Assembly: GCF_016618195.1 (NCBI RefSeq)
Contig: NZ_CP067099.1
Coordinates: 992,001-1,056,000 of the forward strand
Length of the DNA stretch: 64,000 nt
From: Providencia manganoxydans
Lineage (GTDB): Bacteria; Pseudomonadota; Gammaproteobacteria; Enterobacterales; Enterobacteriaceae
Direction of reading: 5' to 3'
Shown here: piece after piece, positions 27,919 through 52,316 of the stretch
Position numbering within the stretch: the first letter of the stretch is position 1
Layout: every line of letters starts with the position of its first letter
Notes under the pieces: model-generated
Databases searched by the model: none
The model's input: only the letters and a program-made list of their open reading frames with translations
Told to the model about the DNA's origin: nothing
Translations under genes and position numbers: made by a program

Positions 27919-28089
27919 TTAATGGTTTTTCATCATTTTATGATGGGTTATGGCGATGGCGTGCTTACCATCAAGATGTACTAAATCATTTTCGTTGATG
28001 TCTGTGTTACATGCCGTAAGCCAAATTGAAAGGAATGCGTATTGGCAGCTAACATCATTGCGTAACATGTGATATATAGAGGGTTCCAT
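27919..28089 (-). CDS. 56-residue hypothetical protein upstream of cptA
   Basis: A frame of 57 codons starts at an ATG at 28089 with AGGA 7 bp upstream and ends with TAA at 27919. It reads MEPSIYHMLRNDVSCQYAFL, then SIWLTACNTDINENDLVHLD and GKHAIAITHHKMMKNH. Base composition of the segment (about 40% GC) is higher than that of the AT-rich flanks, which suggests selection as coding. It has no signal peptide and no clear membrane helix. I do not recognise the family. It is the first gene leftward from the divergent region shared with the K+ channel gene, 145 bp ahead of cptA. Confidence 0.55.
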   Translation of the reverse strand: MEPSIYHMLRNDVSCQYAFLSIWLTACNTDINENDLVHLDGKHAIAITHHKMMKNH

Positions 28090-28121
28090 GTATTCCTATC
28101 TGATCACAGGGTGAGGGTAAA

Positions 28122-29300
28122 ATGTCAGATAACGTATTTATTGTTTTTCTGAAATCATCCCTATTTATTCGACTTGTCCTTTCAATACTTATCATCGTTG
28201 ACGGTTATATGATTATTACCCCTGTTTTTGGGGCTTATACCGATTATATTGATTGGCGTGCAAATGGCTTTAGTGAGTGGCTTAAATCTCTTGGATTTAT
28301 GAAACTACTTGATATTCCAAGATTTCTTCTTGGTATTTCATTGATTTTTTTATCGTTATTTATGCTTAATGGTGCGCGTATCGCATGGGTGTTTTCGTTA
28401 TTTCTATTGGCAATTATTTCATTTGTGGATTTAAAAATCGCGACAGAAAACATTCATCAAGGCTATTTTTCTTTAGGTTTATTTAGTGCATTAAGTGTGT
28501 TTTGGAGACGATATCATCATCATAGTTTAACCAGTGCTGGCTTTGTGGCAGTCACCTGTATCATTGCTTTGTTGCTCTATTCTATTTTTGGCACACTTTA
28601 TATTGGTAATGAATTTTTACCTGTTGTAAAAGATGGAACAACAGCTTTCTATTTTGCTTTAGTTTGTATGACAACAGTTGGTTTTGGCGATATTGTTCCT
28701 GTGTCAACAGATGCTAGAGTGTTTACTGTTACAGTGATCATTCTTGGAATTACTATATTTACAACATCAGTGGTTTATGTTGTTGGATTATTAGCTAAAG
28801 GGACAAAGGAAATTGTTCGTAAGAGGTTTTCTTATATGAAGAATCATTATGTTGTTATTGGTAGTACACCAACGGCAGTCAGTGTATATCAAGGGTTAAA
28901 AAATCGAGATCTTCCTGTCGCTGTGATTTGTCAAGAGAGCCATCGGACACATTATCCAGAGAAAGATAATATAGTAACGGGTGATCCCACAAGTACAGCA
29001 CTATTAGCTGAAGCGAATGTTAAGCAAGCGCAATATGTATTAATTATGACGGATAGTGATGCGTTAAGTACGTTCGTATTATTAGGTGTTAAACAATTAG
29101 TTAATGCAAATAAAGATGTAAAAACGATCGTTCTCGTTAACCAAGAAAGTAATATGGATAAAATTCGCCTACTAGAACCTGATATGTTGTTTTCACTTTC
29201 TTCGCTCGGTGGTGAGGTTTTGATGAGGGTACTTTGTGGTGAAACAATATCGAATGCTAGTATGAGTGATATTCTGTTAAATAAAATGGTGAAAAATTAA
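28122..29300 (+). CDS. Kch-like voltage-gated potassium channel with RCK (TrkA-N) domain
   Basis: This is a 392-residue inner-membrane K+ channel. Several N-terminal helices (about 12-130) precede the pore; the pore loop carries the K+ selectivity filter TVGFGD in FALVCMTTVGFGDIVPVST (about 180-198), followed by the last helix. The cytoplasmic C-terminal half is an RCK/TrkA-N Rossmann domain starting NHYVVIGSTPTAVSVYQGL, ending near GGEVLMRVLCGETISNA. The layout matches E. coli Kch (417 residues), which also has this soluble domain; orthology is probable, not proven. GAGGG lies 5 bp before the ATG. It is divergent from the small gene and cptA. Confidence 0.87.
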   Translation: MSDNVFIVFLKSSLFIRLVLSILIIVDGYMIITPVFGAYTDYIDWRANGFSEWLKSLGFMKLLDIPRFLLGISLIFLSLFMLNGARIAWVFSLFLLAIISFVDLKIATENIHQGYFSLGLFSALSVFWRRYHHHSLTSAGFVAVTCIIALLLYSIFGTLYIGNEFLPVVKDGTTAFYFALVCMTTVGFGDIVPVSTDARVFTVTVIILGITIFTTSVVYVVGLLAKGTKEIVRKRFSYMKNHYVVIGSTPTAVSVYQGLKNRDLPVAVICQESHRTHYPEKDNIVTGDPTSTALLAEANVKQAQYVLIMTDSDALSTFVLLGVKQLVNANKDVKTIVLVNQESNMDKIRLLEPDMLFSLSSLGGEVLMRVLCGETISNASMSDILLNKMVKN

Positions 29301-30060
29301 TAGAATGAAAGCGCTATACCATTATCAAGTAAATTAGTTATCAGCGCCAAAGGAGGCTGCTTTTAAGCAGCTTAATTTTACAGTTCTTCCTAAGAAAATT
29401 TTATAGGGAAGGAAATAATGGTACAAGTGAAACGATATTATTACATGTGATGTTTGAGTTCATAACAGTAGGTAAGGGTAATGTTATGTTGTAGTAGTCA
29501 TCTATTTATTATTTTACACGTGGATATTATTCAGCATTGATTGTATTTAGGGAATAACTTTGCAGTGAATTTATGACTATTGCAATCGTAGCTAATTTAA
29601 ATATTAATATAGATAATCGATAATGTGAATAAAAATTGTTATCTGTAACATATAAAGCAAGGTGAAATTATTGTTAAATAAAAGCTGAATAAATGTAATG
29701 TATAAAGTAATATTTTAACAATTTTAATATAACTAGTTGTAATGTAAGGTATTTTAATGGTGATGAAAGTGATTTGAATATATTGATTAGCGTCTTAAGT
29801 AACTAACAGTAAAACTATCAGCTTTATTTCTTTAGTTGTTTCAAATTATTTTGAAATTATAATTTTAAATATTTATGTAAGTATTTTTTGTTTTTTGAGA
29901 ATGGAAATTTAAAGTTTATAGTTTTCTATAAGATAATAATGCTAATTGTAAGTTAAGTTTTATATTTTTTATACATTGACATAATTTAAATTAACCGCTT
30001 AATTTTTTTTTTTGTATAATTAAATTAAGAATAGAACAGCAATCACATAAGGTGGTATCG
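29301..30060. other. AT-rich intergenic region after the K+ channel gene
   Basis: These 760 bases are about three-quarters A+T and show no gene I can support. A short hairpin (GCTGCTT-tt-AAGCAGC, 29356-29371) followed by TTAATTTTA, 56 bp after the channel gene, is a weak terminator candidate. The right end carries the promoter of the broken MrpJ-like gene; TATAAT-like sequences abound, so none can be singled out. Confidence 0.35.
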
Positions 30061-30376
30061 ATGGATAATTTAGATTTGAACAGCATGGTTTCACTATACT
30101 TTAAAAATCTTAGAAAAAAGCAACGAATAAAAGGTTATGAGTTTAGCCAAAAAATTAGGCCTTAGTCAGCAGCAACTATCTCGCTATGAGACAGGAAAAG
30201 TTAACTTCAATATCACGTTAATCAATCAGTTAATGATAGAGTTAGAGGGTAATTGGGCTGATTTTATAAATAAAACTGTTAACGTTAACAATCAATTGAA
30301 GCTTGAGCAATCTATAGAAAATGAAGATATTTATTTGAAAATACTCAGTAAAAATTCAAAAAACGCTTGGGCATAA
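30061..30376 (+). pseudogene. MrpJ-like XRE regulator, broken by a one-base frameshift
   Basis: An ATG at 30061 with AAGGTGG about 10 bp upstream opens MDNLDLNSMVSLYFKNLRKK then QRIKGYEF, and runs to a stop at 30163. The next frame, open to 30376, continues the protein: LAKKLGLSQQQLSRYETGKV, NFNITLINQLMIELEGNWAD and so on. Removing one T from the GAGTTTAGCC at about 30149-30158 joins them into an intact helix-turn-helix protein of about 104 residues. The SQQQLSRYE motif is the signature of Proteus MrpJ-type fimbrial regulators. It resembles the intact regulators at 31176 and 49794. A sequencing error or programmed slippage is possible, but inactivation is the simplest reading. Confidence 0.75.
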
Positions 30377-31175
30377 CTAACTGTAAACACAAAGAATTAG
30401 GTTATTCGGTTGCATATGTTGAGTATCGGTTCACGTGGAAGGCTATTGGTTATATGGTTTCGGATAGTGATTTTTATCTAACGGTAGTGATAGAATGCAA
30501 TAGCTTTATATGATGCAGTTATGTTAAGAAAGACGAACGCAAATTAGTTTATATCAGTAGTTATCAGCTCATTCATGAGAATTTTAAAGATTAAGGCAAT
30601 TTATATGATTGTTTAACCTGAATATAGGATATGAATGAGCTGAAATTGATTATCTAAAAATATCCATGATGATTTTTAGCCATGTTGAGATATTTGTTGA
30701 CTGTTTACACGGCGGCATATCGAGCTGTTTTGAATAGAAAACAGCTTAGTATACATATTACAAACCATTAAGATAAATCTTAAAAAAGACAGCTTCAATG
30801 TAAAAAACGCGTATTATGAGTAATTTGAACCGAAAATCATTTTTTGATAGAGTGTTTTTTGATCAAAATAGGCGAGATATGAGTATTTTTTCTGTGTGAA
30901 TATTTTAAAATGTATCTAAATGTAAATAATCGAACTCTAATTTTGTATTGGTTTTTTGTATTCCATTGTTATATTTAGTATTTTATTTTTAATTCTTAAT
31001 GAAATGTAAAAAAGCCTTGTTTTAATAGTTTTCTACTTTTTGTTTGTGGATTTTGATTCTCTAAATCAATTATACAAAGATAGTTGTTGGTTTTACTATC
31101 TTCCTAACAAATATTTGCGCATAACTTTAACTGTATTTATTAATGCATACTTATTTTTATATAAGGCTGGGATTT
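30377..31175. other. Intergenic region between two MrpJ-like genes
   Basis: About 800 bases without a supported gene. The only clear structure is a perfect 9-bp inverted repeat with a 6-base loop (AGCTGTTTT / AAAACAGCT) at 30723-30746, with no U-tract beyond it. The last 300 bases, nearly all A/T, must carry the promoter of the intact regulator. No inverted repeat pair flanking a switchable promoter was recognised. Confidence 0.35.
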
Positions 31176-31496
31176 ATGGATTATCTTGCAGATGAAATAA
31201 ACAAAAAAATAGGGCTATATATAAGAAAAATAAGGAAAGAAAACAGTCTATCAGGATGTCAGCTAGCGATGATGTTAAATGTCAGTCAACAGCAAGTGTC
31301 TCGTTATGAAACAGGGCAAACAAAACTCACTTTTGAAATAGTCGATAATATTTTAACTATTTTGCACAAATCATGGCGAGATTTATTTAATACTGTCATG
31401 GATGAGCATGATAATAAAAGAATTAATGAGGCTATCAATAAAGATAGGACATATTATCAAATAGTTAGTAATACCTCGAATAAGTTGTGGAACTAG
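31176..31496 (+). CDS. MrpJ-like XRE-family transcriptional regulator upstream of ecp operon
   Basis: This is a 106-residue helix-turn-helix protein. The DNA-binding part is SGCQLAMMLNVSQQQVSRYE followed by TGQTKLTFEIVDNIL, with the MrpJ-family signature SQQQ-x-SRYE. The C-terminal half is short and helical. I set the start at the ATG at 31176 (MDYLADEINKKIGLYIRKIR); the frame extends upstream to 31143, but family members start near here. It lies 283 bp before the ecpA homologue on the same strand, the place where E. coli has ecpR, a LuxR-type gene. MrpJ in Proteus mirabilis represses motility when fimbriae are made; the same role here is inference. Confidence 0.8.
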   Translation: MDYLADEINKKIGLYIRKIRKENSLSGCQLAMMLNVSQQQVSRYETGQTKLTFEIVDNILTILHKSWRDLFNTVMDEHDNKRINEAINKDRTYYQIVSNTSNKLWN

Positions 31497-31779
31497 CTTG
31501 ATTTTATTAAGATTTAATCTGGTATACTAGGTAATAAAAATTCACATAAAGAAAATAAATTTTGGTTGGTATTACTTATTAATGAAATAGGTAATATCAA
31601 TCATGAATTATCATTTTAGTATGGATGTTTGTCTTATTTAAAGAACATCGGATTTATTCGATGGTCATGGTTTTTATTTTTTATAATTTTTTTTGATTAC
31701 ATTTAATAAAGGATCCTGATAACAGTATTCTTTGTACTATGTATTTAATTTTGTCACAGATATAAATAGAGAGAATAAT

Positions 31780-32412
31780 ATGTTCAATAAAAAATTGCCG
31801 TCAGTATTACTGTCCACTATTATTGCCGCATCTTTTGCTACAGTTGCACATGCAGAGACACGTACTGCTCAAGCAACAGCAACATGGCAAGCAACTGCGA
31901 TCAAAGATACAACTAGCATGCTAGTTGTTACTCCATTAAAAAGCTTAACCTTTAATTATGCAGAAGGACAAAAAAGCTTTAACCAGCAAAATGGTGCGTT
32001 TGATATTGCTATTCAAGGGCAAGCCGGTGCAACAGATTTTAAATTAGCATCAAAAATTATTGCCAATACATTAGCAAGAACAACTGATGATTCTAAATTA
32101 ACAGTTGGTGTTAAATGGAACGGTGCGGATTTAAGTAAAACAACAGATACCGTTTTAATCGATACCTCTAAAAATTTGACATCGGGCTTAGATAATTTAG
32201 CGGCTAATGGTGTTTATAATGGCTCAGAGCGTGCAACTGACCGCGGTGAATTTACATTTGTTATCGCTGGTGCAGAAACGGGAGGAGCAGCAACTGATTT
32301 TAAATCACTGACTGATGGTACTTGGGATGGTGATGTAAAGGTTCAGTTTACTGCGACTTGGGATGGTGATTTTACTCCGGCTCCAAATCCAGAGTCAGGT
32401 TCTGACGCATAG
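31780..32412 (+). CDS. ecpA: Common-pilus major pilin, EcpA (MatB) homologue
   Basis: This is the major pilin of an E. coli common pilus (Mat) system, an alternative (alpha) chaperone-usher fimbria. The 210-residue precursor has a signal peptide (MFNKKLPSVLLSTIIAASFA ending AHA). The mature part follows EcpA closely: TAQATATWQATAIKDTTSML, VVTPLKSLTFNYAEGQKSFN and WDGDVKVQFTATW. It lacks the cysteine pair of FimA-type pilins, as expected. Unlike E. coli EcpA, which ends just after this last strand, it has about 13 extra residues (GDFTPAPNPESGSDA). The start is set by the signal peptide; GAGAG lies upstream. A hairpin follows before ecpB. Confidence 0.9.
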   Translation: MFNKKLPSVLLSTIIAASFATVAHAETRTAQATATWQATAIKDTTSMLVVTPLKSLTFNYAEGQKSFNQQNGAFDIAIQGQAGATDFKLASKIIANTLARTTDDSKLTVGVKWNGADLSKTTDTVLIDTSKNLTSGLDNLAANGVYNGSERATDRGEFTFVIAGAETGGAATDFKSLTDGTWDGDVKVQFTATWDGDFTPAPNPESGSDA

Positions 32413-32513
32413 TATCCAATTGATTAAATATTCAAGTACAGCAAACATAGCTCACAAAATATTAATTGTTAGTTAAGTTAATGCTGTAATTTAATGTATG
32501 ACGTTTAATATCG

Positions 32514-32549
32514 CGATAAAGATAGTATAAGGAAATAGTATCTTTATCG
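32514..32549 (+). other. Hairpin between ecpA and ecpB
   Basis: CGATAAAGATAGTAT and ATAGTATCTTTATCG form a 15-bp stem with one mismatch around a 6-base loop (AAGGAA), 101 bp after the pilin stop and 21 bp before ecpB. TTATTTTTAAGTTTT follows. Such stems after a major pilin gene usually reduce read-through or protect the pilin message, giving excess pilin over chaperone and usher; here that is inference. Confidence 0.65.
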
Positions 32550-32570
32550 TCATTATTTTTAAGTTTTATT

Positions 32571-33254
32571 ATGATGAGAAAAATAACTTTAGTCACTATT
32601 TTAATGTTATTACCATTTAAAAGTAGTTTTGCCATCAATGTTGGTAATATTACTGAAATTATTGATGCTAATAATAGTACCTTAGCTAAAGAAGTAGAGA
32701 ATACTGTTGCTACGGCAAGATTGGTTAATTTAAGTATTGAGAAAATAGATTCACCATTAGATAACGGAAAGGTTTTACCAATCAGTGATCCTAATGAAAT
32801 ATTATCAACACCTGCAAATTTAATTTTACCAGGTAATGCAAGAGATATATTTAAGATTATTTATCAAGGGCCTAAAGATGATAAAGAGCGATACTATCGA
32901 TTAAATTGGAAAGATGATCCGATAGGTGAAAGTGGAGCAACCAAAAGTGCAAAATCAGCATCAGCTACAACATCTGCAACTATTAGCACTATATTGGTTG
33001 TCGCACCAAGAATCGAACGGTTCGATTATAAATATGAAAATTCACAAGTTTCTAATTTAGGAAATAGTTCTTTCAGAGTTGTTGCTTCTGGTCCATGTTT
33101 GGCTTCAAAGAAAGAAAGTGGCGTAGATGGTATTTGCCGAGAGCGTTATTACCTTATGCCTCATTTAGCAGTGAAATTACAGCTTGTCGATCTCACAAAT
33201 AAAAAATCTAGCGTAGGTATTTGGCACAAAGGAGAGTTCATTGTTGTCAAATAA
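32571..33254 (+). CDS. ecpB: Common-pilus periplasmic chaperone EcpB
   Basis: EcpB is the chaperone that folds and delivers pilins to the usher. The 227-residue precursor has a signal peptide (MMRKITLVTILMLLPFKSSF ending FA). Family matches include LINI-type strand VNLSIEKIDSPLDNGKVLPI, PANLILPGNARDIFKIIYQG and PKDDKERYYRLNW. Two cysteines in GPCLASKKESGVDGICRERY are also paired in E. coli EcpB. It has no good ribosome site, which fits lower expression than the pilin. It is followed by the usher after 18 bp. Confidence 0.88.
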   Translation: MMRKITLVTILMLLPFKSSFAINVGNITEIIDANNSTLAKEVENTVATARLVNLSIEKIDSPLDNGKVLPISDPNEILSTPANLILPGNARDIFKIIYQGPKDDKERYYRLNWKDDPIGESGATKSAKSASATTSATISTILVVAPRIERFDYKYENSQVSNLGNSSFRVVASGPCLASKKESGVDGICRERYYLMPHLAVKLQLVDLTNKKSSVGIWHKGEFIVVK

Positions 33255-33272
33255 CTAGAATGGGCTTTAATC

Positions 33273-35768
33273 ATGCGTAAGAGTGTTATTGCGATATCAA
33301 TATTGAGTATTATTTTTTCAGGCTCTATTCATGCCAATGGAATAAAAAGTTTAAAAATTGGTGGATATATTATTCCTCCTGCATTCGTTATTGCATTAGA
33401 GGAAGGGATGACTGTACCTGTATTCCTACGATTAAAGGATGCAGATAAAAATAATCAAAGTGAAGATAAGATAGCAGATGCGGTCATTGTTATCGATCAG
33501 GATAAGATAAAGCTATCGAGTATTCATCTTATTGATAATACGCAAGGGCCTAAACTCAATGAGCAATTAGTAGAGAAAATAGATAATCAACAAAATGCTT
33601 TTTTTAATGAAAGTAATGGTATCGTGATTAGCCGTGATGCAGTACTACAATTGAATATCTCTTCTTTTAATTTATCTTTGGATGTTGATAAGCAAGCATT
33701 TTCGCCTAAAGAACGTATAAGACAATCCTCATTAGGAAACTCTTCTGTTGATTCAGTCTCAGCAGTCGCTAACTATGATCTCGGTATTTTTCAAAGCCAA
33801 GTCAAAAATGCTAACAATACGTCTAGTAGCTATTTCAATTTAGATACCTTATTTGCGCTTGCAGAACACCATATGAATATTAATGCTTCTGTTTACAGTA
33901 TTGGTAAATCGAATTCAAATGTTGAACTCTATCGAGCAATGTATGAGCGTGATTTTGGTGGCTTGCGTTTTGCGCTTGGATTAATGAGCACATGGAATTT
34001 ACAGTCTATCGCTAGTTTGACTACGTTAAGCAGTAGCAAAATTTATGCGGTCTCAATAGGTAATAATTCCTCAAGTCTTATGGTTAATAAGCAGCAGTCT
34101 TTAACACCAATTTATGCATTTTTGAATAGCCCTGGTGAAGTACGAATATATCGACAAGGTAAGTTGTTAAATATTCAAAACTTCCCTATGGGTAACTATG
34201 AGGTTGATACTAGCGTATTACCTTATGGTATTTATGATGTCACGATTGAAACTGTTGTTGATGGTAAAGTTGTGACGACACAAAACCAAACTATTAATAA
34301 ATCATTTGGTGCTATGGGGAGAAATTTTGATAAGACCAATTGGGAAATTTATGGTGGTTATGTTGATTTCGATAAGAAAAGTTATGTGAGAGGTGAAAAC
34401 TCACACACTCAAACTCCAAATAAGAGCTATTTATTAGGTGCTTCGATAGCAAAAAGTTTTCCGATATTCTCAGGATTGAGTTTAACCATGTCTAACTATG
34501 GTTTTGATAAGTTCTTAGTCAATGAAACCAGTATTAATGTTGCTTTAAATGAGCACTTATCAATTTCTTGGCAAGGTATGTTGGAAAACCATGGAAGTCA
34601 TCGGAATATTGGCACTATTTCTGTAAATTTACCGGATGGTTATGCCTCATTATGGGCGTCGAGGGAGAAGACAGTCATAAAAGGTGATTTGCCACTTTAT
34701 GATGCAGATAGCTATTCTTATGGTGGTACTTTTAATTTTGATAAAGTGATTGATAGAGCAGGAAGCTTTACTATTAGTAATACCAAAGATCGCCGCGTTG
34801 GCAGTGATTCGATTAACTATGAATATGCGAATACATTATTTTCTGGACGTTACGGGACCGTCGGGCTAAGAGCGGGTGTTCAGCGTTACCATTATGATAA
34901 TCAAAGCAGTACTAATGAAAAATATATTAATCTTGATTTTTCTTTGCCGTTATCCACTTGGTTAAGCACTGGTGTTTCTTCTACGAACGGTAACGTAAAG
35001 GCCAATATTTATGCGAATAAAAACTTTGATGATTCTGCAATCACGAATGCAGGGGTATCTGTTTCTAAATTAGTCCGAGATAAAAACAACGGTGAGTCAG
35101 ACTTCTCAACATTAGCTTATGCTTCTTACGATATGAAATATAACTCAGGTACGATCACATTAAATCGACCGGATAATGATAGGTTTAATGGTAATTATAC
35201 TTCTCGTGGCTCTATTGCTTATAGTAATGGCATGGTGACACCAAGTGGACAGCAAGGAAAATCAGGGGTGATTATTAACTCTGACATTAACGGTGCTGGA
35301 AGTATGGTGGCGAAGGTCAACGGTCAAAATTATCCTATTAGTGGAAAAAATACATTTATCCCTCTATCGCCTTATTCTGACTACGACATTCAATTAATGA
35401 ATGATGGTAAGTCGAAAGATAGCTTCGATATTGTGTCTGGAAGGAACAAATCTGTCACTTTATATCCGGGGAATATTGCTTTTTATCAGCCGGAAGTTAG
35501 GCAATTAATCACTGTTTTCGGTCGCCTTAAATCACCAGATGGTGAATTTATTAAATATGCTTCAATACGTAATCATATTGGAAGAACCAAGACGGATGAA
35601 AATGGTGAGTTTTCGATGGATGTTGATGTTCGCTACCCAGTTATTTCGCTATTGCAAGAAGATGAAAAAACAATTTGTGAGGCCGATTTAAACCTACAAG
35701 GCGCTAGAGGTGCTTTGTGGGTAGGCGATGTCACCTGTGAGCCTCAATCTTCAATTGCGAAAAGATAA
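33273..35768 (+). CDS. ecpC: Common-pilus outer-membrane usher EcpC
   Basis: EcpC is the outer-membrane assembly pore of the common pilus. The 831-residue length is near E. coli EcpC (841). It has a signal peptide (residues 1-21, ending IHA), an N-terminal binding domain, a barrel-plus-plug region with SPGEVRIYRQGKLLNIQNFP and PYGIYDVTIETVVDGKVV, and C-terminal beta domains including VFGRLKSPDGEFIKYASIRN. It belongs to the TcfC-like alternative usher group and not to the FimD/PapC group of the second operon in this window. Its last codons precede ecpD by 13 bp. Confidence 0.9.
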   Translation: MRKSVIAISILSIIFSGSIHANGIKSLKIGGYIIPPAFVIALEEGMTVPVFLRLKDADKNNQSEDKIADAVIVIDQDKIKLSSIHLIDNTQGPKLNEQLVEKIDNQQNAFFNESNGIVISRDAVLQLNISSFNLSLDVDKQAFSPKERIRQSSLGNSSVDSVSAVANYDLGIFQSQVKNANNTSSSYFNLDTLFALAEHHMNINASVYSIGKSNSNVELYRAMYERDFGGLRFALGLMSTWNLQSIASLTTLSSSKIYAVSIGNNSSSLMVNKQQSLTPIYAFLNSPGEVRIYRQGKLLNIQNFPMGNYEVDTSVLPYGIYDVTIETVVDGKVVTTQNQTINKSFGAMGRNFDKTNWEIYGGYVDFDKKSYVRGENSHTQTPNKSYLLGASIAKSFPIFSGLSLTMSNYGFDKFLVNETSINVALNEHLSISWQGMLENHGSHRNIGTISVNLPDGYASLWASREKTVIKGDLPLYDADSYSYGGTFNFDKVIDRAGSFTISNTKDRRVGSDSINYEYANTLFSGRYGTVGLRAGVQRYHYDNQSSTNEKYINLDFSLPLSTWLSTGVSSTNGNVKANIYANKNFDDSAITNAGVSVSKLVRDKNNGESDFSTLAYASYDMKYNSGTITLNRPDNDRFNGNYTSRGSIAYSNGMVTPSGQQGKSGVIINSDINGAGSMVAKVNGQNYPISGKNTFIPLSPYSDYDIQLMNDGKSKDSFDIVSGRNKSVTLYPGNIAFYQPEVRQLITVFGRLKSPDGEFIKYASIRNHIGRTKTDENGEFSMDVDVRYPVISLLQEDEKTICEADLNLQGARGALWVGDVTCEPQSSIAKR

Positions 35769-35781
35769 AGAGAATTTGCTA

Positions 35782-37389
35782 ATGAATAAACATAGACTTT
35801 TTATATTTCTCGTTTGTACCATTGTTAATGGTTTTACGGGAGGAAATGTACAAGCTGCAAATGTTACCAATAGTTATGTATTTATTGAAAATAACGTCGA
35901 TGATGAATATTTTATTACTCCGAGATCTACCGATCCTCGTTTTTCGGGATCAAATAAATACACGCGTTACTCAGGGACATCTCAGCTAAGTCTTGGCTAT
36001 ATGGGGTATACGAATACAGGCATTCGGGCTAATCAAAATGTTGATATTTGGTTAGAAAATTCACCAATAGATCGGCCGTTTACAGGTAATCGATGTATGC
36101 GAAACACTTGCCGTGATAGTACAGGATATTGGCCTGCTCAATATATGGGGAAAGATGGTGCTTATAAAATTGTACAGAGTGATGTGCGTGGAGAATCCAA
36201 TTATGCTAGGGGGATCTTCAGTGATTCAGCATATCAATATTTCTTACAATTACCTGTGAGTACGAACGAGACATATAGCTATCGAGCTTGCATGACACAA
36301 ACAGATTATGACCCAAGTAAAGGTGAATCTTGTAGAAGCGTTGGCGGTAATATCATTGCTTCCCATGAATTTAATATAACTAAGTCTGGTCATATCAAAC
36401 TAACCTCTACTGGTGCATTACAAGAAATTTTTATTGATAGTAATGGGAATCCTAATCTAGGGTTAGGCTCTGAGTTTTGCCGTATTGGTATTATTTCAAA
36501 TCAAAGTGGTATTATTTGCCAGGTTATTGATCAAGAAACTAAAGGTGATATTTTTGCCAACATTAGGTTGAGCCTGAAAATTAATAATACATTAATTCCT
36601 TTTACTCCTGCGGGAAACACGATATTAATTGGCCCTGATGACGGAAGTAATCGTTGGTATAACTATAACTCAACAAATCAAGCTAATTATTACTTTAAAC
36701 CGACAAATCAACATGTATCTATATTTTTATCAAACACTTTCTTTAAAGAATTAGTTAGCCGTAATGTTGACTTTACTAATAGCCAAGATTTTTTCACATT
36801 TTCGTTTACTAACACGGCAGTACCACAATCAGGATACTATGAATTTACGCCATCAAATAAAATGATCATAAAACCGAGAGATTATGGGATTAGTATCATT
36901 CCTGCCGATTTTAACCCTGTTCAATCTAAAACAGGAAAAGTGGGGAGTGAAGAGCCGCCGATTGAATTCAATTATATCGTTACTACCAGTGGTTTTCGCC
37001 AAGCAGATTCAATTACAGCTAAAGTTGATGGTCCTTCTGTTGCTTTAAAGGGACAAACATATTGTCTTTTCTCATCGGATGATGAGAAGTTTAAAGTTCC
37101 ATTTTCTGCTTATCTTTCATTTACAAATGAAAATGGCGGTAAATCGACATATCGAGCAAGTTGTGATAGCAATGAAATATCACTTAAAAATGCTTTATGG
37201 TCTGAAACACCATGGGATCAACCAAATCAAGATCTCGGATCTTTTTATCGCACTAATCTGGATTTATCATTCCCTATGAATGATTCCAGTTCATTGTTTA
37301 CATTGGATGGTATTGACTGGCTAGGTACGGTATCGGCAAGTGGTACGGTGACAGTAAAAGCAATCTGGACTGGACCTGATGTTCATTAA
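35782..37389 (+). CDS. ecpD: Common-pilus tip adhesin EcpD
   Basis: EcpD is the tip subunit and adhesin. The 535-residue precursor has a signal peptide (MNKHRLFIFLVCTIVNGFTG, ending VQA). The N-terminal adhesin half contains NSYVFIENNVDDEYFITPRS and WLENSPIDRPFTGNRCMRN; the C-terminal pilin half has GSEEPPIEFNYIVTTSGF and WLGTVSASGTVTVKAIW, both near-identical in style to E. coli EcpD (547). The start at 35782 is set by the signal peptide; a longer frame from 35728 overlaps ecpC and is unlikely. Cysteine pairs (CMRNTC and others) suggest disulfides in the adhesin domain. The receptor is unknown. Confidence 0.88.
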   Translation: MNKHRLFIFLVCTIVNGFTGGNVQAANVTNSYVFIENNVDDEYFITPRSTDPRFSGSNKYTRYSGTSQLSLGYMGYTNTGIRANQNVDIWLENSPIDRPFTGNRCMRNTCRDSTGYWPAQYMGKDGAYKIVQSDVRGESNYARGIFSDSAYQYFLQLPVSTNETYSYRACMTQTDYDPSKGESCRSVGGNIIASHEFNITKSGHIKLTSTGALQEIFIDSNGNPNLGLGSEFCRIGIISNQSGIICQVIDQETKGDIFANIRLSLKINNTLIPFTPAGNTILIGPDDGSNRWYNYNSTNQANYYFKPTNQHVSIFLSNTFFKELVSRNVDFTNSQDFFTFSFTNTAVPQSGYYEFTPSNKMIIKPRDYGISIIPADFNPVQSKTGKVGSEEPPIEFNYIVTTSGFRQADSITAKVDGPSVALKGQTYCLFSSDDEKFKVPFSAYLSFTNENGGKSTYRASCDSNEISLKNALWSETPWDQPNQDLGSFYRTNLDLSFPMNDSSSLFTLDGIDWLGTVSASGTVTVKAIWTGPDVH

Positions 37390-37428
37390 AGTTCAACAAC
37401 CTCTAACAATGTAGGCATAAGTGATAAA

Positions 37429-38106
37429 ATGGTTAAAGTTAAACTAAGCTCTTATATATTATTCATAATGTCATGTTTATTTTATAACTGTGCTTATGCC
37501 TTATATATCGATACCGATATATCTTCTATGGAAGCGGATAAAGAGTTTTTTTCAAAGCCATACATTAATGATACGAAAACAACGAATCTGTATAGTTTTA
37601 GTGCGTATAAGATTGATCGACCGGGAGGTCATGAAGTTGGCGAAGAGATCCGCAATGGTGAGATTATTTTCACTCCACTAAAAAAAATCTTATTACCAAA
37701 AGAGCAAGAATTTTTTAAGATTTTTTATCGTGGAAAGGTTGACGAACAGGAGAGATATTACAAAGTGATTATTAGTGAAACACCATTTGAAGCGCAAAAT
37801 AGTGTTGCTCAAAAGAAATCTCCTTTGTTTTATCCCACTATCAGTTTAGAAACCTACTTTGTTGTTAGACCCAAGCAACCTAATTTCAAATATGAAAGTG
37901 ATCCTGTTGAAGGAGTATTAAAAAATACCGGAAATACTTATTTTAGAGTGATCTTGCATGACAGTTGCCAAGTCAGTGAAGATGAAACACCTGATGTATT
38001 TTATTTGTTACCTCAGCAGGAATATCGAGATGCACGTTTAAAAAAGAAAAGCCGTAAATATATTGTGATTTTTGACAAATATCATTCGATTGGGAACTGT
38101 GAATAG
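37429..38106 (+). CDS. ecpE: Common-pilus second chaperone EcpE
   Basis: EcpE is a second chaperone-like protein, thought to serve the tip subunit. The 225-residue protein has a signal sequence (LSSYILFIMSCLFYNCAYA) and the chaperone fold with YKIDRPGGHEVGEEIRNGEI, LPKEQEFFKIFYRGKVDEQE and ISLETYFVVRPKQPNFKYES, in line with E. coli EcpE (236). The N-terminus of the mature part differs from EcpB, as in E. coli. It closes the operon and is followed by a 12-bp hairpin. Confidence 0.85.
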   Translation: MVKVKLSSYILFIMSCLFYNCAYALYIDTDISSMEADKEFFSKPYINDTKTTNLYSFSAYKIDRPGGHEVGEEIRNGEIIFTPLKKILLPKEQEFFKIFYRGKVDEQERYYKVIISETPFEAQNSVAQKKSPLFYPTISLETYFVVRPKQPNFKYESDPVEGVLKNTGNTYFRVILHDSCQVSEDETPDVFYLLPQQEYRDARLKKKSRKYIVIFDKYHSIGNCE

Positions 38107-38112
38107 TATGGG

Positions 38113-38141
38113 CTTTGCAAGTTAGTCAATAACTTGCAAAG
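38113..38141. terminator. Hairpin between ecpE and ugpQ
   Basis: A perfect 12-bp stem (CTTTGCAAGTTA / TAACTTGCAAAG) with a 5-base loop fills the gap between the two convergent genes. There is no clean U-tract on either side, but position makes it the likely end of both transcripts. Confidence 0.7.
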
Positions 38142-38151
38142 TGAAGCAATA

Positions 38152-38892
38152 TCATGCAGCAAAATCAGGACCAATAACATCGATCGCATCGGTACAAATT
38201 GCATCAACCCCCCATTTTAATAACTCCGCAGCACGGGGTGGTTTATTGACGGTATAGACTAAAATATGTAACCCTGCATTTTTTAATTGTTTAATCCGCT
38301 TTTCATCTAATAGTTTATGATTTAGATGGATAGATACACAATCCAGTCGTGTTGTTAGCTCATGCCAATCATCGCGCCAATCATCTAATAGCAATCCTCT
38401 CGGCAATTCTGGTACAGCCCGTTGAGCAGCCTCTAGTGCTTCAATTGAGAAAGAGGAGAGCAATGGAGCTGTTTGGCCTTGCCACAATTGAAGCGCTGCA
38501 AGCGCGATAATTTTTCCTGTTTCAGCTTCTAGACCTGTTGTTGGTTTAATTTCGATATTCGCCATCATAGCGTGTTGTTGGCAACGAGCTGCGACTTCAG
38601 AAAGTAAAGGTAATGGCTCACCTGCAAATTTTTTACTATACCAACTACCTGCATCAACTTTTAATAATTGTAGCCAATTTAATTCACCTGCAACGCCGTA
38701 AGCATTGCTAGTACGATCAAGTGTGTCGTCGTGCAAGAGAAAAATCTGACCATCAAGAGAAAGTTTTGCATCAAATTCAATCATGGTATGACCAAAACTA
38801 GCCCCAACATCGATTGCGGCTAATGTATTTTCTGGAGCAAGTTTCCCTCCGCCTCGGTGAGCAACAATTTTAGGATAAGGCCATGATTTCAT
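38152..38892 (-). CDS. ugpQ: Glycerophosphodiester phosphodiesterase UgpQ
   Basis: UgpQ is a cytoplasmic enzyme that hydrolyses glycerophosphodiesters to glycerol-3-phosphate and an alcohol. The 246-residue length matches E. coli (247). The active-site motif is [18 protein letters not shown] (His near residue 12) with [20 protein letters not shown] (metal-binding Glu and Asp, second His). Further marks are [12 protein letters not shown] and the C-terminal [12 protein letters not shown]. The ugpBAEC transporter genes are absent here, so it is a monocistronic relocation between two fimbrial operons. Confidence 0.95.
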
Positions 38893-39173
38893 AGATTTTG
38901 TCCGTTTTTCATTAGAAAGGGGAATAGGGTTTTGATTAAAACATAATATTAATTCACTTGTAATGAATATTTTAATACTTCGATGATTACCTGCTCGTCA
39001 AAGGATAACAAAACGTTATCGCATTTTCTGTTTTATTAAAGCAAGGGAGGTTTTAGATATAAGGAGTATCTAAAAGGCTAATAAAAGTCTAATCTGGTGC
39101 TTTTACAATGATAGGTATCGGAAATAAATACTTTATTGCCTTAGGTAGAGGTGAGCACTTTTAAGGGATAAAA

Positions 39174-39728
39174 ATGAAAAAAAGAAGTTTTATGACGCAA
39201 ACAGAAGTAGATGCATTACTGGCCGCTACAAAGAGTGGGAGATATCCTGAAAGGGATTATTGTTTGTTTTTAATGGGCTTTTTACATGGTTTTAGGGTAA
39301 GTGAATTACGCCAATTGTCCCTTGATGATATCGATATGAAGCAAAAAGTTATTTATGTTAAACGTTTAAAATCTGGGCTTTCAACTGTACAGCCTCTAAT
39401 TCCTGAAGAATATGATGCTTTGGTTATGTGGCTATCCAAACGTAAAAAAATTGCCTCAGATGATAATAAATGGGTTTTTTTATCTCAAAAAAATCAACCT
39501 TTATCACGTAGCCAAATTTTTCGTTTAATTGAAAAATATGGGCAAGACGCTAAGTTATCAATTAAAGTGCACCCACATATGTTACGTCATGCTTGCGGTT
39601 ATGCTTTGGCTGATTTAGGTCGTGATACCCGCTTAATCCAAGATTATTTAGGGCACAGAAATATTGCACATACTGTTATTTATACTGCAAGTAACGAAAA
39701 ACGATTTAATGGTATATGGGACTATTAA
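39174..39728 (+). CDS. Tyrosine recombinase, FimB/FimE/MrpI type (orphan)
   Basis: This 184-residue enzyme is a short tyrosine recombinase of the kind that inverts fimbrial promoters. Catalytic residues are visible: Arg in HGFRVSELRQLSLDDID, His-x2-Arg in HPHMLRHACGYAL, His in LGHRNIAHTVIY with the nucleophile Tyr in VIYTASN. AAGGG lies 6 bp before the ATG. In Proteus mirabilis mrpI is divergent from mrpA with the switch between them. Here the nearest promoter of a fimbrial operon is about 8-10 kb away, and the enzyme lies between ugpQ and a decayed gene. Whether any switch remains is unknown; no inverted repeat pair typical of fimS was found nearby. Confidence 0.85.
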   Translation: MKKRSFMTQTEVDALLAATKSGRYPERDYCLFLMGFLHGFRVSELRQLSLDDIDMKQKVIYVKRLKSGLSTVQPLIPEEYDALVMWLSKRKKIASDDNKWVFLSQKNQPLSRSQIFRLIEKYGQDAKLSIKVHPHMLRHACGYALADLGRDTRLIQDYLGHRNIAHTVIYTASNEKRFNGIWDY

Positions 39729-39751
39729 ATTGAATGAGGTAGGTCGCGCCA

Positions 39752-40290
39752 TTATGGCGCGATTTGAGCTTTAAGGGCTAAGCATGCTTGTTGGAGGCCA
39801 TTGTCGCAAGCTAACTGAAAGTAATAACGTACGGCGTGATGTGAAGTTTGCGTAACGTGGTCTTTTTGGATTAACCAACCTAAATTGTATTGGGCATAAG
39901 CTTGCCGTAATTGCTCGTTTTTTTAGAGCATCAGTTGTCAAGATGGGCTGAGTTGAACTAGCTGGTGGCGGTGTACTGTTTTTTTCGCTAATAATTGTAG
40001 ATTATTGTTAAGACGTTGAACATCTGCTTGTTGCTGCTGAAGTTGTTGACGATATTATTGTTCACGACGCCGGCTAGCTTGCAATTATTGCTGCAATATT
40101 TTCAATTTGATTTAGGTAACTGGATCTCTGTTTGTCAGAAGGTTTCAGGAGTATTATCTGATAGCTGATCTTTACGTGCTTCATATTCTTGGAAGAATTG
40201 AAGTAACCTCGGTAAGCTATTATTTTTTCTTCACTATATGCTGTGGAAATAAAGAAAAAAGTATAGGAAAAACGACTGTAAATTTCAAAT
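39752..40290 (-). pseudogene. Decayed exported coiled-coil / Sel1-like repeat protein
   Basis: The minus strand preserves pieces of a protein in several frames. From the 5' end they are: a signal-like KFTVVFPILF, then EYEARKDQLSDNTPE, QLQQQQADVQRLNNNLQLLA, a Pro/Ser linker NSTPPPASSTQPILTTDALK, and a Sel1/TPR-like end AQYNLGWLIQKD ... YYFQLACDNGLQQACLALKA, which stops at 39752. At least three frameshifts and several internal stops interrupt it, so it is dead. The closest living family is uncertain (a periplasmic coiled-coil protein with a tetratricopeptide-like repeat). Exact ends are approximate. A 7-bp hairpin (TCGCGCC / GGCGCGA) at 39744-39762 overlaps its stop and may end the recombinase transcript. 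Confidence 0.6.
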
Positions 40291-40742
40291 TAATTGAGTG
40301 CCACACAGGATATGAAGCAGCCATAATAGCTTTTAATAACTAAAAAGCTATTATTAAAAATAGAATTAAATATAAGAGTAAATGATGGTGAATTTATTCT
40401 TATATTTATTCTTGTTACATAAATGATGTGGTTAATCGAGCTAACATAAAAACTAAAATTATGCAAATGAATAACCCAGAGAAGCGTTATTTTCTTTATT
40501 CGTATTTTATCAATCGGTAGTTGAATAAAAATTACAAATTTGCAGATATGACTTAGCTATGAAAGGGAATTTTAGTTTTGTATCCCCCATATTATGTCTG
40601 CCTCTTCTGAAACTTTAAAACTCCTAGACGTCGAGTGCGCTGCTGTGAGTATCAATTACTTAGCGGGATATTCCTAGCTCCTTGAACGTGATATCAGTAG
40701 TTGGCCTTTGGTGTTAATACCTCACTGCTTGTGATGGGGTGC
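40291..40742. other. Intergenic region downstream of the Mrp-type fimbrial operon
   Basis: No gene is supported in these 452 bases. A 12-bp perfect stem (ATAATAGCTTTT / AAAAGCTATTAT) lies at 40323-40354. The last 160 bases (about 40580-40740) are richer in G+C than the surroundings and may be a worn coding remnant, but no frame gives a recognisable protein. No clear terminator for the fimbrial operon was seen. Confidence 0.3.
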
Positions 40743-41606
40743 TCATTTGGCTTCTAAAACTAAGACTCCGGATGCTGAAGATTCTCCTGAAGTTAGCGCT
40801 ACACCAACTAAACTAGCTGTGACATTAAGGTTTGTTGTTTCTAGAGCATTTAATTCAATACCTGAACTATTCGCACTAATATCAGTACCATTAATAGCTA
40901 TTTTAGCTGCTACACTATTCCCAAAACTTAAATTCCCATTTTGATCTACCCGAGAAGAGGTTAATTTCAAGGTATAGTCTCTTGCATCCCCATTGCTACA
41001 ATTTATAGTTAAGTTTCTATTTTGTTTAGCACCATTTACATCTAATGCATTTGCTAAAAATGTAAAGTTTAATAATTGGTCGTTTAGTGTACATGTGTTT
41101 TTTTTATTTGGGGGATTCACAATTTCAATATCCCCACGCCGACTACTTCTTACTATATGTGCAGAAGCCCTGTTCATTGAATCATAACAGGCGTAAATAA
41201 AATCTATATTAATAGTGTCCATCAATTCTAAAGCCACAGAATCACCTGATATATATGGAATACTTATTTTATTATTCATTATATTTGTTATTGTATTTAT
41301 TGCTGATGTGTAGCTACCCAATCGGCCATTACATTCATTAGTTGAAAGTCTTTCGTAATACACTGTTATATTCCCTCTATTTGGAATATAACCAGAAGCT
41401 TCTAACCCAATTCTGACACTCTTTGGATCACCACTTCCCGGAGCTTTGTATCCTACTTCTGTCATCTGCCCTGTACCACCATTACTGACTACTGCATTCA
41501 TGTAAGGTCTAGGACCAAAGTCTACAGATGAATCAGCTGACGTATTAAAACTGATGATTAATAGAAATAATATATATAAGCTTGTCTGCATTCTATATTT
41601 TGACAT
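40743..41606 (-). CDS. Fimbrial tip adhesin-like protein (MrpH position)
   Basis: This 287-residue secreted protein is the last gene of the Mrp-type operon. It has a signal peptide (about 1-24, ending SADS), an N-terminal domain unrelated to the pilins (about 25-165, Cys pair in RLSTNECNGRL ... IYACYD) and a C-terminal pilin-like domain from about 168 (KNTCTLNDQLLNFTF ... LTINCSNGDARDYTLKLTSS). Two-domain structure and terminal position match tip adhesins such as MrpH, though sequence similarity to MrpH cannot be confirmed by eye. AGGAG lies 6 bp before the ATG. Receptor unknown. Confidence 0.72.
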   Translation of the reverse strand: MSKYRMQTSLYILFLLIISFNTSADSSVDFGPRPYMNAVVSNGGTGQMTEVGYKAPGSGDPKSVRIGLEASGYIPNRGNITVYYERLSTNECNGRLGSYTSAINTITNIMNNKISIPYISGDSVALELMDTINIDFIYACYDSMNRASAHIVRSSRRGDIEIVNPPNKKNTCTLNDQLLNFTFLANALDVNGAKQNRNLTINCSNGDARDYTLKLTSSRVDQNGNLSFGNSVAAKIAINGTDISANSSGIELNALETTNLNVTASLVGVALTSGESSASGVLVLEAK

Positions 41607-41679
41607 ATATAACTCCTGTTATATTTATGTAGTATTGTTATTTTGAATAGTTAACAAAAAATTAGCCATTTCTTTAGAG

Positions 41680-42222
41680 TTATTCATATTCAAGAATAAA
41701 AGTGGTAGTAGCCTCGAAAGTTCCGCGTGCAATGGATTTATCGCGAAGGGCGTTAGGTTCGCCTTGAACATAAGCTTTCAAATTGATGTTATTGGTGTCA
41801 CTGACTTTGAGTTGTTGAGTATAGTCCTTTGATCTATTTAACGAGATAGGTTCGCCACTTTGAGTTTCAAAACCAATAGCGATCCCATTTGCTTGGCTCC
41901 CTGCATTAAGTGCTAATAATCCGGGTAATGCTGTACTTTCAGTTCCCATAAAGGTTACTTGAACTTCTTTACCCAACACTAAATCACAATTAATTAACCT
42001 AATTGTAAATGGCTGGCTGTGTGTTCGTGTATTCAAATACAAATATTTGTCTACAATAGTACCAAAATCCAATTCGATATTTTCATCGCCAGGATATACT
42101 TCACAAGCGTCCTCAACCAATGTTCCATCAAATTGTACGGTTTCCGACTGCGCACAAAGCGGTACTCCAACTAGACTTAGTGACAAGACTAAAGACCATA
42201 ATTGACGTAATGGTATTTGCAT
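41680..42222 (-). CDS. Fimbrial minor subunit (MrpG-like position)
   Basis: This is a 180-residue type-1-family pilin: signal peptide ending CAQS, then VQFDGTLVEDACEVYPGDEN, LDFGTIVDKYLYLNTRTHSQ, PFTIRLINCDLVLGKEV (Cys pair) and the beta-zipper end RGTFEATTTFILEYE. It lies between the adhesin gene (73 bp away) and the next minor pilin (24 bp), which fits a tip-proximal adaptor. The start has GGGAAATAAG upstream, only a weak ribosome site. Confidence 0.75.
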   Translation of the reverse strand: MQIPLRQLWSLVLSLSLVGVPLCAQSETVQFDGTLVEDACEVYPGDENIELDFGTIVDKYLYLNTRTHSQPFTIRLINCDLVLGKEVQVTFMGTESTALPGLLALNAGSQANGIAIGFETQSGEPISLNRSKDYTQQLKVSDTNNINLKAYVQGEPNALRDKSIARGTFEATTTFILEYE

Positions 42223-42246
42223 TTTTCTTATTTCCCTTTTATCGTT

Positions 42247-42765
42247 TCATTGAAAATCGATGGTCAATGTCCCGGTCGCAGAAAAATTATCACCAACCAG
42301 CTCCGTTCCTGCGCGCTTAATCGGAACCGCCGATAATTTTGGGGGCTTTGAACTGTTAATTGCAAACGCTTTGTTCAGTTCTAACGGTATCCCGTCCTTT
42401 TGAATTTGAATACCTAATTTTCCGTTATTCATAGGGCTAATTGTGCGTAATGTTGCATTATCAAATCCCGAACCAGCAAGTATTCCACTGAACGTCAATG
42501 TCACATTCCACGGTTGAGTTAAGTCACCTTGGCAATTCAATTGATACGGTATGTCTTGTTTAAATAGATTCCCATCCACTTTACGGACCCCTACCTTTCC
42601 AAAAGAAACGCGTACGGGATTAGTTTGCCCTAATTCACAGGCAGGAGGGAGTACGAGCGTACCATCAAAAAACCAATTAGCTTCTACTGCTGAGGACATC
42701 ATCATGAAGAGCCCGCCTACACTACATAAATAACGTTGACTTGTGCTTATCAGTGACTTTTTCAT
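42247..42765 (-). CDS. Fimbrial minor subunit
   Basis: The product is a 172-residue pilin-like protein with signal peptide (ending SAVEA), WFFDGTLVLPPACELGQTNP, YQLNCQGDLTQPWNVTLTFS and a C-terminal strand GDNFSATGTLTIDFQ. One cysteine pair is conserved. It belongs to the same group as the three genes upstream, sharing the P-P-[AE]-C-x-[LVF] start and the K-x-[GM] ... AVPIK segment, so they arose by duplication. It overlaps the previous gene by 4 bp. AAAGG lies about 11 bp before the ATG. Confidence 0.75.
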   Translation of the reverse strand: MKKSLISTSQRYLCSVGGLFMMMSSAVEANWFFDGTLVLPPACELGQTNPVRVSFGKVGVRKVDGNLFKQDIPYQLNCQGDLTQPWNVTLTFSGILAGSGFDNATLRTISPMNNGKLGIQIQKDGIPLELNKAFAINSSKPPKLSAVPIKRAGTELVGDNFSATGTLTIDFQ

Positions 42766-43259
42766 TGATAGTCCACCTTTAATGTCGCCAATGCAGTAAA
42801 ACTACCGCCATCTGTATCATTAAAGCCCTCGCTCATATTTTTAATCGGTGCGGCTTTTAAAGAAGGCAAAGAGGTGTAATTAATATTCACTGGTTTATTA
42901 ATCGCTTGTCGAACATTATTGACATAAAAAGCAATGCCTAGTTTATCGTTGCTTGTTTTTAATTCTTCACCGCTATTAAACGATGTCGCATCACCTTTTA
43001 ATGTCAATGTTAGATTATTTTTTGCTAATCCTGTGCACGATAGACTCAATGGCAATGTTTGTAAGTAGTTATCACCGTCAATGCGCGTTAATAAAATATC
43101 ACCAAAATGAATCGCTGCTTGAGCATTGTTATTTAGAATGCATTCAGGTGGCGTCACAATTAAATTACCGTAAAGGTTTGCCTCTAACCCTAATGCAAAT
43201 GGAGAGCTTATTACACAAAAAAAGCAGAGTGCCACTTGTTGTCGGTAAATAAATTTCAT
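42762..43259 (-). CDS. Fimbrial minor subunit
   Basis: This is a 165-residue pilin-like protein. I set the start at the ATG at 43259 with AAGGAG 6 bp upstream; the longer frame from 43289 overlaps the preceding gene. Signal peptide (MKFIYRQQVALCFFCVISSP, ending ALG), NLYGNLIVTPPECILNNNAQ, PLSLSCTGLAKNNLTLTLKG and the end DGGSFTALATLKVDYQ. It has the usual Cys pair. Its stop overlaps the next start by 4 bp. Confidence 0.77.
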   Translation of the reverse strand: MKFIYRQQVALCFFCVISSPFALGLEANLYGNLIVTPPECILNNNAQAAIHFGDILLTRIDGDNYLQTLPLSLSCTGLAKNNLTLTLKGDATSFNSGEELKTSNDKLGIAFYVNNVRQAINKPVNINYTSLPSLKAAPIKNMSEGFNDTDGGSFTALATLKVDYQ

Positions 43260-43269
43260 CTTATTCTCC

Positions 43270-43767: not shown

Positions 43768-43782
43768 GAGATAGTCCCACAT

Positions 43783-44319: not shown

Positions 44320-44328
44320 CGTTAACTC

Positions 44329-44937: not shown

Positions 44938-44984
44938 GAGGCTCTCCTGCGTTGAAATCTGCTTTAACGTCATCTTGTTCTAAG

Positions 44985-45761: not shown

Positions 45762-45813
45762 ATTTTTTACCTTAGTATGAAGTAGGGATAATCTTCTTCA
45801 ATCATGTTATTTT

Positions 45814-48483: not shown

Positions 48484-48577
48484 CTCGACCTTCTTATTTC
48501 TTTTTTATTAATAAAACCATTTAGCTTTTTGATTCAAAATCAATACTTGGTTTTGACATATAAAATTAATAATTGGA

Positions 48578-49114: not shown

Positions 49115-49190
49115 AGCTTCCTCTCCTACGCTGGTTTCCATTTGAAATAAGCCAGCAAAATATCCTTTTTTGCTAGCTACTAAATATTGA

Positions 49191-49721: not shown

Positions 49722-49793
49722 ATATTCCTCTATGAATTATAAGTAAATAACTTGATTTATTTCTATTACTACAAAACATTTATTCTATTATGA

Positions 49794-51130: not shown

Positions 51131-51182
51131 AAGAAATTATTCAGTTTGATTTATGCTCTGACTCATCAATATAATCCGCATA

Positions 51183-51900: not shown

Positions 51901-52049
51901 GATATAAATTATATTAAACACGGTGAGTCCGTGAAAAAGCTGCCAACAGACATTTAATTTAGGTTGAGTTCGGTGAAGTTAGATGATTGATAATGCAAGA
52001 AATATATAGGAGTTTGCTTGACTTGAGGGAACCACTGTAGAAGTGAAAG

Positions 52050-52297: not shown

Positions 52298-52316
52298 GTA
52301 CTAGAGACTATCATTG

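Follow-up and report, generated by a model that had tools for sequence, protein, structure and literature searches.

An MrpJ-type regulator gene and a conserved hairpin at the head of the ecp pilus operon in Providencia manganoxydans and other Morganellaceae

The ecp (common pilus) locus of Providencia manganoxydans was analysed in a stretch of 64,000 nucleotides (contig NZ_CP067099.1 of assembly GCF_016618195.1, positions 992,001 to 1,056,000 of the forward strand; the whole stretch is called the window), which lies in a genome of one contig of 4,342,370 bases. Five structural genes, ecpA to ecpE, follow on one strand a short gene for an XRE-type DNA-binding protein (the XRE); a conserved hairpin lies between this gene and ecpA, and a second, broken XRE gene (MrpJ1) lies further upstream (table 1). 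Positions are those of the window, and L numbers denote ecp, fimbrial or flhD loci of this and other genomes.

Table 1. Features of the ecp locus, with the matches on which each assignment is based (percentages are identities).
Feature	Coordinates	Strand	Evidence
MrpJ1, second MrpJ-like XRE gene, frame disrupted	~30062..30376	+	two overlapping frames carry the halves; HTH_3 27.8 bits, distal part
XRE regulator, MrpJ type, heads the ecp operon	31176..31496	+	HTH_3 5.1e-10; SQQQVSRYE; 106 aa
Conserved hairpin, 7 outer and 12 inner pairs, then T-rich stretch	31696..31745	+	covariance model R1 match 31690-31751, E 1.2e-10 over 66 sources
ecpA, major pilin	31780..32412	+	MatB 1.1e-54; FimblnEcpA equivalog above cut-off; PDB 3qs2 1.3e-45; 52% to E. 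coli EcpA
ecpB, periplasmic chaperone	32571..33254	+	EcpB_C 5.4e-24; PDB 5dfk EcpB 6.6e-52; 39% to E. coli EcpB
ecpC, alternate (TcfC/CooC) usher	33273..35768	+	TcfC and CooC_C domains; 41% to E. coli EcpC over 830 aligned positions
ecpD, tip adhesin	35782..37389	+	FimbAdhEcpD (NCBIfam) 2.2e-131; 36% to E. coli EcpD
ecpE, second chaperone	37429..38106	+	31% to E. coli EcpE; EcpB_C 0.0006, under cut-off

A reading of the window made from its letters alone (the sequence-only reading) had matched the five proteins with EcpA, EcpB, EcpC, EcpD and EcpE of E. coli in that order, and coordinates, domains and identities of 31-52% agreed with it; the motifs it had named, YAEGQKSFN in EcpA and FNYIVTTSG in EcpD, were both present. 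The order A-B-C-D-E on a single strand is that of an ecp operon. EcpA was placed in the MatB/EcpA family by its NCBIfam equivalog (246 bits, cut-off 200), whereas EcpD reached 439 bits against an equivalog cut-off of 900 despite its low E-value and is, judged by its sequence, a divergent EcpD. NCBIfam gave a weak TcfC-like match for EcpC and none for EcpB or EcpE, Pfam gave none for EcpD, and the weakest matches among the five proteins were those of EcpD and EcpE. Solved E. coli relatives were found for EcpA and EcpB, and sequence search reached no solved structure for EcpD. The ecpA frame is open from 31732, upstream of its ATG at 31780, ecpD probably starts at 35782 within an open reading frame that opens at 35728, and an alternative upstream ATG at 31143 is possible for the XRE gene.

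The E. coli operon ecpRABCDE (common pilus or Mat fimbria) has the same five genes, in the same order and from the same families, and likewise a DNA-binding gene directly upstream on the same strand, but this gene codes for the LuxR-type EcpR and not for an XRE. It had been claimed that an XRE protein with the signature SQQQ-x-SRYE takes the place of EcpR in the window, and this is what was found: the XRE gene stops 283 bp before the ATG of ecpA, its motif reads SQQQ-V-SRYE, no EcpR was found upstream of ecp in the window, and phmmer and blastp of the XRE against E. coli EcpR gave no match. No NCBIfam model scored above its own cut-off on the XRE protein.

The protein is a short XRE/HTH_3 regulator which carries SQQQ-x-SRYE and is linked to a chaperone-usher operon, as are the MrpJ, AtfJ and UcaJ paralogues of Proteus mirabilis. 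An MrpJ-like profile gave 29 matches in the genome, of which the 25 best (>48 bits) were used and the 4 weaker ones were counted as other HTH_3; 20 of the 25 lay within 10 kb of an usher (16 of these upstream of it on the same strand, as read from coordinates), compared with 0 of the 20 remaining HTH_3 matches. For reference, the XRE of P. mirabilis ATCC 29906 was used which was taken as that of mrp from its operon beside an invertase (65% identical to the invertase at window 39174). It is located at the 3' end of that operon and shares 45% identity with the window XRE over 51 aa. Orthology with MrpJ was rejected on this identity, on the 5' position of the window gene and on its place in the XRE tree (weakly resolved) apart from the mrp XREs L189 and L190; the two systems also differ in that the window usher is of the alternate (TcfC) type. 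The name 'MrpJ-type' was thus upheld for the kind of regulator, most of which sit near ushers, and not for MrpJ itself or for its 3' position. The genome has a large fimbrial repertoire: beside ecpC there are 23 PF00577 ushers (17 PF00577 matches in P. mirabilis ATCC 29906), and the MrpJ-like regulators number about 25.

Of 24 Providencia genomes 20 have MatB, with 24 copies between them, and in every copy an MrpJ-like XRE lies directly upstream of ecp on the same strand, in one case (L044, genome G203) as a truncated frame. The same pairing is present in P. mirabilis, in Moellerella wisconsensis and on plasmids of P. rettgeri (two) and P. hangzhouensis; the contig of P. myxofaciens begins just ahead of ecpA. 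Among 20 genomes of the genus Proteus, 12 gave MatB matches, 27 in all: one, that of P. mirabilis, has the XRE (by its contig), two are at contig ends, and at the other 24 no XRE was found within the ~1.4 kb examined. Some Proteus ecp loci (L082, L083 and L131) contain two EcpA-like genes, the second a divergent one just downstream. In a tree built from 76 different EcpC sequences, the operons that carry the XRE form a single clade of 27 rows (support 100 in the Shimodaira-Hasegawa-like approximate likelihood ratio test, SH-aLRT), with the XRE in 26 of them and the 27th cut by a contig end, and none of the 49 rows outside the clade has it. Among those 49, phmmer gave strong EcpR matches in 6, weak ones in 9 and none in 34; the strong matches are confined to one six-row subclade far from the XRE clade, and several loci without XRE are preceded by frames that look LuxR-like by eye.

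The pairing of XRE and ecp is therefore conserved and has a single origin on the usher tree. Co-occurrence in relatives had been set beforehand as a point on which the sequence-only reading would stand or fall, and it stood, since every copy in the genus has the pairing. Its term 'regulatory swap' fared unevenly: an XRE does head ecp instead of EcpR, but direct displacement of EcpR was not borne out, as EcpR proper is restricted in this set to one remote branch. Judged from the tree, different ecp lineages seem to have acquired different head regulators. The pairing belongs to the whole Morganellaceae clade, and the peculiarity of the window is a further change of XRE type, taken up below.

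After removal of six near copies, the flanks of the ecp loci fell into 9 upstream groups (22 loci) and 14 downstream groups (23 loci). Comparison of the plasmid locus L087 with the chromosomal locus L071 gave 88-99% identity from 406 bases into ecpA through ecpE, compared with 77-90% at the start of ecpA, 47% before ecpA, 51-72% in the XRE and 45% upstream of it; the regulator-promoter module has clearly been exchanged here once. EcpD occurs in at least three types by the identity table, namely that of the window (13 loci including the window, at least 72% to the window protein), that of L071 (8 loci including L071, at least 85% to the L071 protein) and that of L066 and L075 (58% and 60% to the window and L071 types). 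L072 and L073 are 81-94% identical from ecpA to ecpC but 43-62% over ~1 kb of the first part of ecpD.

These comparisons bear on whether the XRE belongs to the operon at all. Providencia fimbrial loci collect MrpJ-like genes (17 of the 24 usher loci of the genome have one within 10 kb), and MrpJ acts on many targets according to passages of PMC11599158, so that the XRE could be a mere neighbour which acts on flagella or other fimbriae and not on ecp. We consider this improbable, because the gene keeps the same strand and the same place before ecpA in 24 of 24 copies despite differing flanks, and because in L087 and L071 regulator and promoter differ together beside nearly identical pilus genes.

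The ecp operons of the window and of P. vermicola P8538 share a site after the same channel-like gene, which we take, without a search, to code for a potassium channel. Directly after this gene P8538 (L068:6460-7754) and six other Providencia have ccmAB (loci compared: L266, L268, L270, L275, L277, L285 and L294-L296); ccmAB was not found in the window, where 29300-30060 is the stretch concerned, and the cargo after ccmB differs among the four genomes inspected. The ecp cassette of P. mirabilis lies ~2.5 kb from a selenocysteine tRNA gene (L074:6976-7066), a gene which is a frequent integration site.

Upstream of the XRE gene, the dyad RATAG-N6-8-CTATY was found at 18 of 23 ecp loci (0.13 expected from shuffles), always with a spacer of 7. 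It is within 300 bases of 34 of the 77 distinct MrpJ-like XREs of the fetched loci and, when these were sorted with near copies included, of 21 of 26 ecp XREs and 13 of 51 others; ten other spacings gave 2 matches in all, and the background, more likely over- than underestimated since some ecp loci went into it, was 0.010 per 300 bases. Within the genome of the window, 6 of the 25 MrpJ-like paralogues have the N7 dyad (0.1 expected); one of the six is an orphan, and the other five lie by different ushers. A published MrpJ site is reported to be ACnC-N7-GnGT, with which the N7 spacing of the dyad would agree. The dyad upstream of the XRE in relatives appears to be the best candidate operator, better than the hairpin region.

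Several observations weigh against an XRE that controls ecp through this dyad and also acts on motility. The dyad is missing from the window itself, as well as from P8538, L085, L087 and L147; it was not found in the kilobase upstream of the flhD match in any of 23 genomes; and the exact window-type repeat occurs in the 24 genomes only at the ecp loci of the window and P8538. Nothing seen at flhD or in the distribution of this repeat points to a direct effect on motility. A conserved dyad at flhD was rejected as a candidate, since an N12 version is found in 7 genomes of one subclade only (GATAG-N12-CTATC, ~140 bp before the flhD match, L308-L314). In the window these half-sites, again with N12, occur ~109 bp ahead of the part of the ecp XRE that was matched.

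The XRE of the window is 76% identical to that of P8538 and 33-42% to 12 other ecp XREs aligned, while its EcpC is 87% identical to that of P8538 and 75-85% to those of other ecp loci. Both operons nest within the XRE-bearing EcpC clade. MrpJ1 has one internal stop in the window by whole-genome profile search; an intact relative is present at the corresponding place in P8538 (L068:8038-8343), in tandem with the ecp XRE in both genomes. In the XRE tree the 21 other ecp XREs stand together (SH-aLRT 94), with one orphan paralogue from the genome of the window among them, and the XREs of window and P8538 are placed with MrpJ1 and a paralogue from P. mirabilis (SH-aLRT 86). Window and P8538 have thus probably undergone a swap inside the swap, by which a different MrpJ subfamily came to the head of ecp. 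The orphan MrpJ-like gene L155 (G000:C1:3878763) groups with the common ecp XREs, has the N7 dyad and lies 16.6 kb from an usher; it is perhaps a leftover of the regulator replaced at ecp.

Position and strand of the XRE gene are unchanged in the two genomes, and a single clade of all 23 ecp XREs was not rejected (p = 0.064 in the approximately unbiased test), the domain being short and the tree poorly resolved. Both points speak against a second swap and would fit an ordinary ecp XRE that evolved fast in these two genomes. This we regard as somewhat unlikely, given the gap between XRE and EcpC identities and the grouping of the pair with MrpJ1 and the P. mirabilis paralogue; the tandem MrpJ1 and the missing dyad also mark these same two genomes, though L085, L087 and L147 lack the dyad too. 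The recognition-helix signature is identical across the aligned XRE types.

Between the XRE gene and ecpA a block of 62 bases is conserved (mean column identity 84% over 20 loci), and the rest of the interval aligns poorly; L067 and L071 were omitted because they have no hairpin. The bases pair in this alignment: 96.1% of cells were paired in register compared with 34-61% when the arms were slid, and both members have changed in 3 pairs (a number matched by 14 of 500 shuffles) and in 7 cells (0 of 500). Of these double changes, two belong to window and P8538 and were taken as a single event; a third is common to P8538 and L063/L069. RNAalifold, which pairs 6-59 and 7-58 instead of 13-52 and 14-51, gave four pairs changed on both sides. 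Two pairs are wobbles in almost every sequence (12-53 UG in 19 of 20, 7-58 GU in 18 of 20). A T-rich stretch follows in 20 of 20 loci, which has little weight because the DNA is AT-rich, and fold z-scores of five hairpin-bearing loci were -1.9 (window) to -5.5 (P8538).

The covariance model, which includes the window sequence among its inputs, matches 20 of the 24 Providencia ecp copies, the window included (E <=5.2e-10; of the 20, many went into the model themselves or nearly duplicate a sequence that did), and P. myxofaciens, from outside the model, at E 1.8e-11. For the genome-wide scan, 150 of 3,591-6,395 first-look candidates were scored per genome (150 of 5560 in the genome of the window); among those scored, other rows with E <0.05 were the same places on the opposite strand, three further places had E 0.07-0.1, and in the genome of the window the ecp hairpin was the sole match listed. 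No match was found in 59 ecp loci of other types, among them the E. coli type, nor in L067, L071 and L151 (66 sources). Rfam 15 gave no match at the hairpin (E up to 1, window 28000-40800), nor did a gathering-level scan of L068, L072 and L074. A terminator scan of 29280-32700 gave three sites, all on the - strand, and none on the + strand between XRE and ecpA; the hairpin is too G+C-poor for that scan.

Not all of this favours a kept RNA structure. Pair types beyond the first are no more frequent than in shuffles (337 of 500 have as many), pair 13-52 is broken in 6 of 19 rows, the hairpin of the window folds most weakly of the five, and the 198 bases between XRE and hairpin in the window leave room for a separate ecpA promoter. 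Four of the 24 copies (one of two P. burhodogranariea operons and three of the L071 kind) have the XRE with no hairpin match, so the hairpin is not indispensable.

The main rival is a DNA site, an inverted repeat on which XRE dimers would switch an overlapping ecpA promoter, the paired changes then adapting half-sites to a new regulator. Perfect 12-base arms occur in several loci, both arms changed together where the XRE type changed (in P8538, less well in the window), and L067 and L071, whose XREs form a subclade of their own, are without the hairpin. A DNA dyad, however, would not need the G-T oppositions at two positions in nearly all sequences, the pairing continues into the outer stem, and the recognition-helix signature does not change with the XRE type. 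The repeat was also rejected as a general operator of the MrpJ family: other MrpJ-like loci of the genome score 16-17 of 22, compared with 17-18 for shuffles, except L171, which at 19 of 22 equals the window ecp repeat, so that the latter carries little weight by itself. A relaxed version of the common repeat, AAAARCAC-N5-9-GTGTTTT, occurs at 21 places in the 24 genomes, 17 at ecpA and 4 elsewhere. A DNA operator is in our judgement unlikely, and the conserved element in 31497-31779 behaves more like an RNA hairpin than like a protein site.

With the operon content as observed, the following scheme is proposed. The XRE would be the first gene of the operon and its dimer would bind at the operon head, for which the dyad RATAG-N7-CTATY is the candidate site in most relatives; it would thereby control its own transcript and hence the pilus, and it may in addition restrain motility, an effect reported for MrpJ, AtfJ and MatA. 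Because EcpR/MatA, too, is reported to act as a repressor of flhDC, the MrpJ relative may be one motility switch standing in for another. A shared transcript of XRE and ecpA is probable, as the gap from XRE stop to hairpin is 24 bases at the shortest, in two relatives, and on this RNA the hairpin may either serve as a leaky terminator or stabilise the pilin message from its 5' side, and in this way set the ratio of regulator to pilin. In window and P8538 the usual XRE and its dyad would have been replaced by the other MrpJ subfamily, with the tandem partner decayed in the window and the hairpin kept by paired changes. On balance we favour the view that XRE, hairpin and ecpABCDE form a cassette recruited once in the Morganellaceae and now present at many chromosomal sites and on plasmids, with the XRE most likely in the role of EcpR (MatA). 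More tentatively, and with real doubt, the cassette may be two-ended, with an exchangeable XRE-promoter module sharing the operator TTGATAG-N7-CTATCAA, a regulatory RNA hairpin kept by compensation despite the regulator swap, and an exchangeable N-terminal module of EcpD.

Downstream of ecp, the window has a fimbrial-type tyrosine invertase at 39174-39728 (NCBIfam PRK09870 above cut-off), at the 3' end of the neighbouring fimbrial operon, and a second chaperone-usher operon on the - strand at 40743-50135, whose head gene likewise codes for an MrpJ-like XRE (49794-50135); in G311 an operon of similar appearance comes after ccmAB (L295). A phase switch at the ecp promoter was looked for and rejected, the inverted repeats in 28900-32000, 38100-40800 and 49600-52400 being weak, AT-rich or distant, with no convincing invertible element.

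Passages of PMC3900561, PMC10530849, PMC9820224 and PMC11599158 describe EcpR/MatA as an activator of fimbriae that represses flhDC, MrpJ as an auto-activator that represses flhD, and AtfJ as a protein that atf expression requires and that acts in both motility and adhesion. The review PMC9820224 gives an MrpJ-type gene in 10 of 17 P. mirabilis operons and calls MrpJ MarR-like, and built-in MrpJ paralogues are already known from fimbrial operons of P. mirabilis and Morganella. In the literature search neither the dyad nor an ecp operon headed by an XRE in Providencia or Proteus came up, but it lacked key MrpJ and AtfJ papers, so that neither can be called unpublished. EcpR/MatA is likewise a head regulator of ecp, with the same proposed logic, but from an unrelated protein family. 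A regulator gene followed by a pilin gene with RNA structure and processing between them is also the arrangement of papB-papA, which differs in fimbria and regulator and for whose processing there is no counterpart in evidence in the window.

In different lineages the same pilus operon is headed by regulators of two unrelated families, the LuxR-type EcpR/MatA and the XRE-type relatives of MrpJ, and both families have members reported as fimbria-motility switches. This offers a natural test of whether what the pilus operon needs is a switch of such logic and not one given protein. Dyad and hairpin make small, concrete targets for binding and RNA work, and the exchanges of regulator and adhesin show the rewiring of a common adhesion system.

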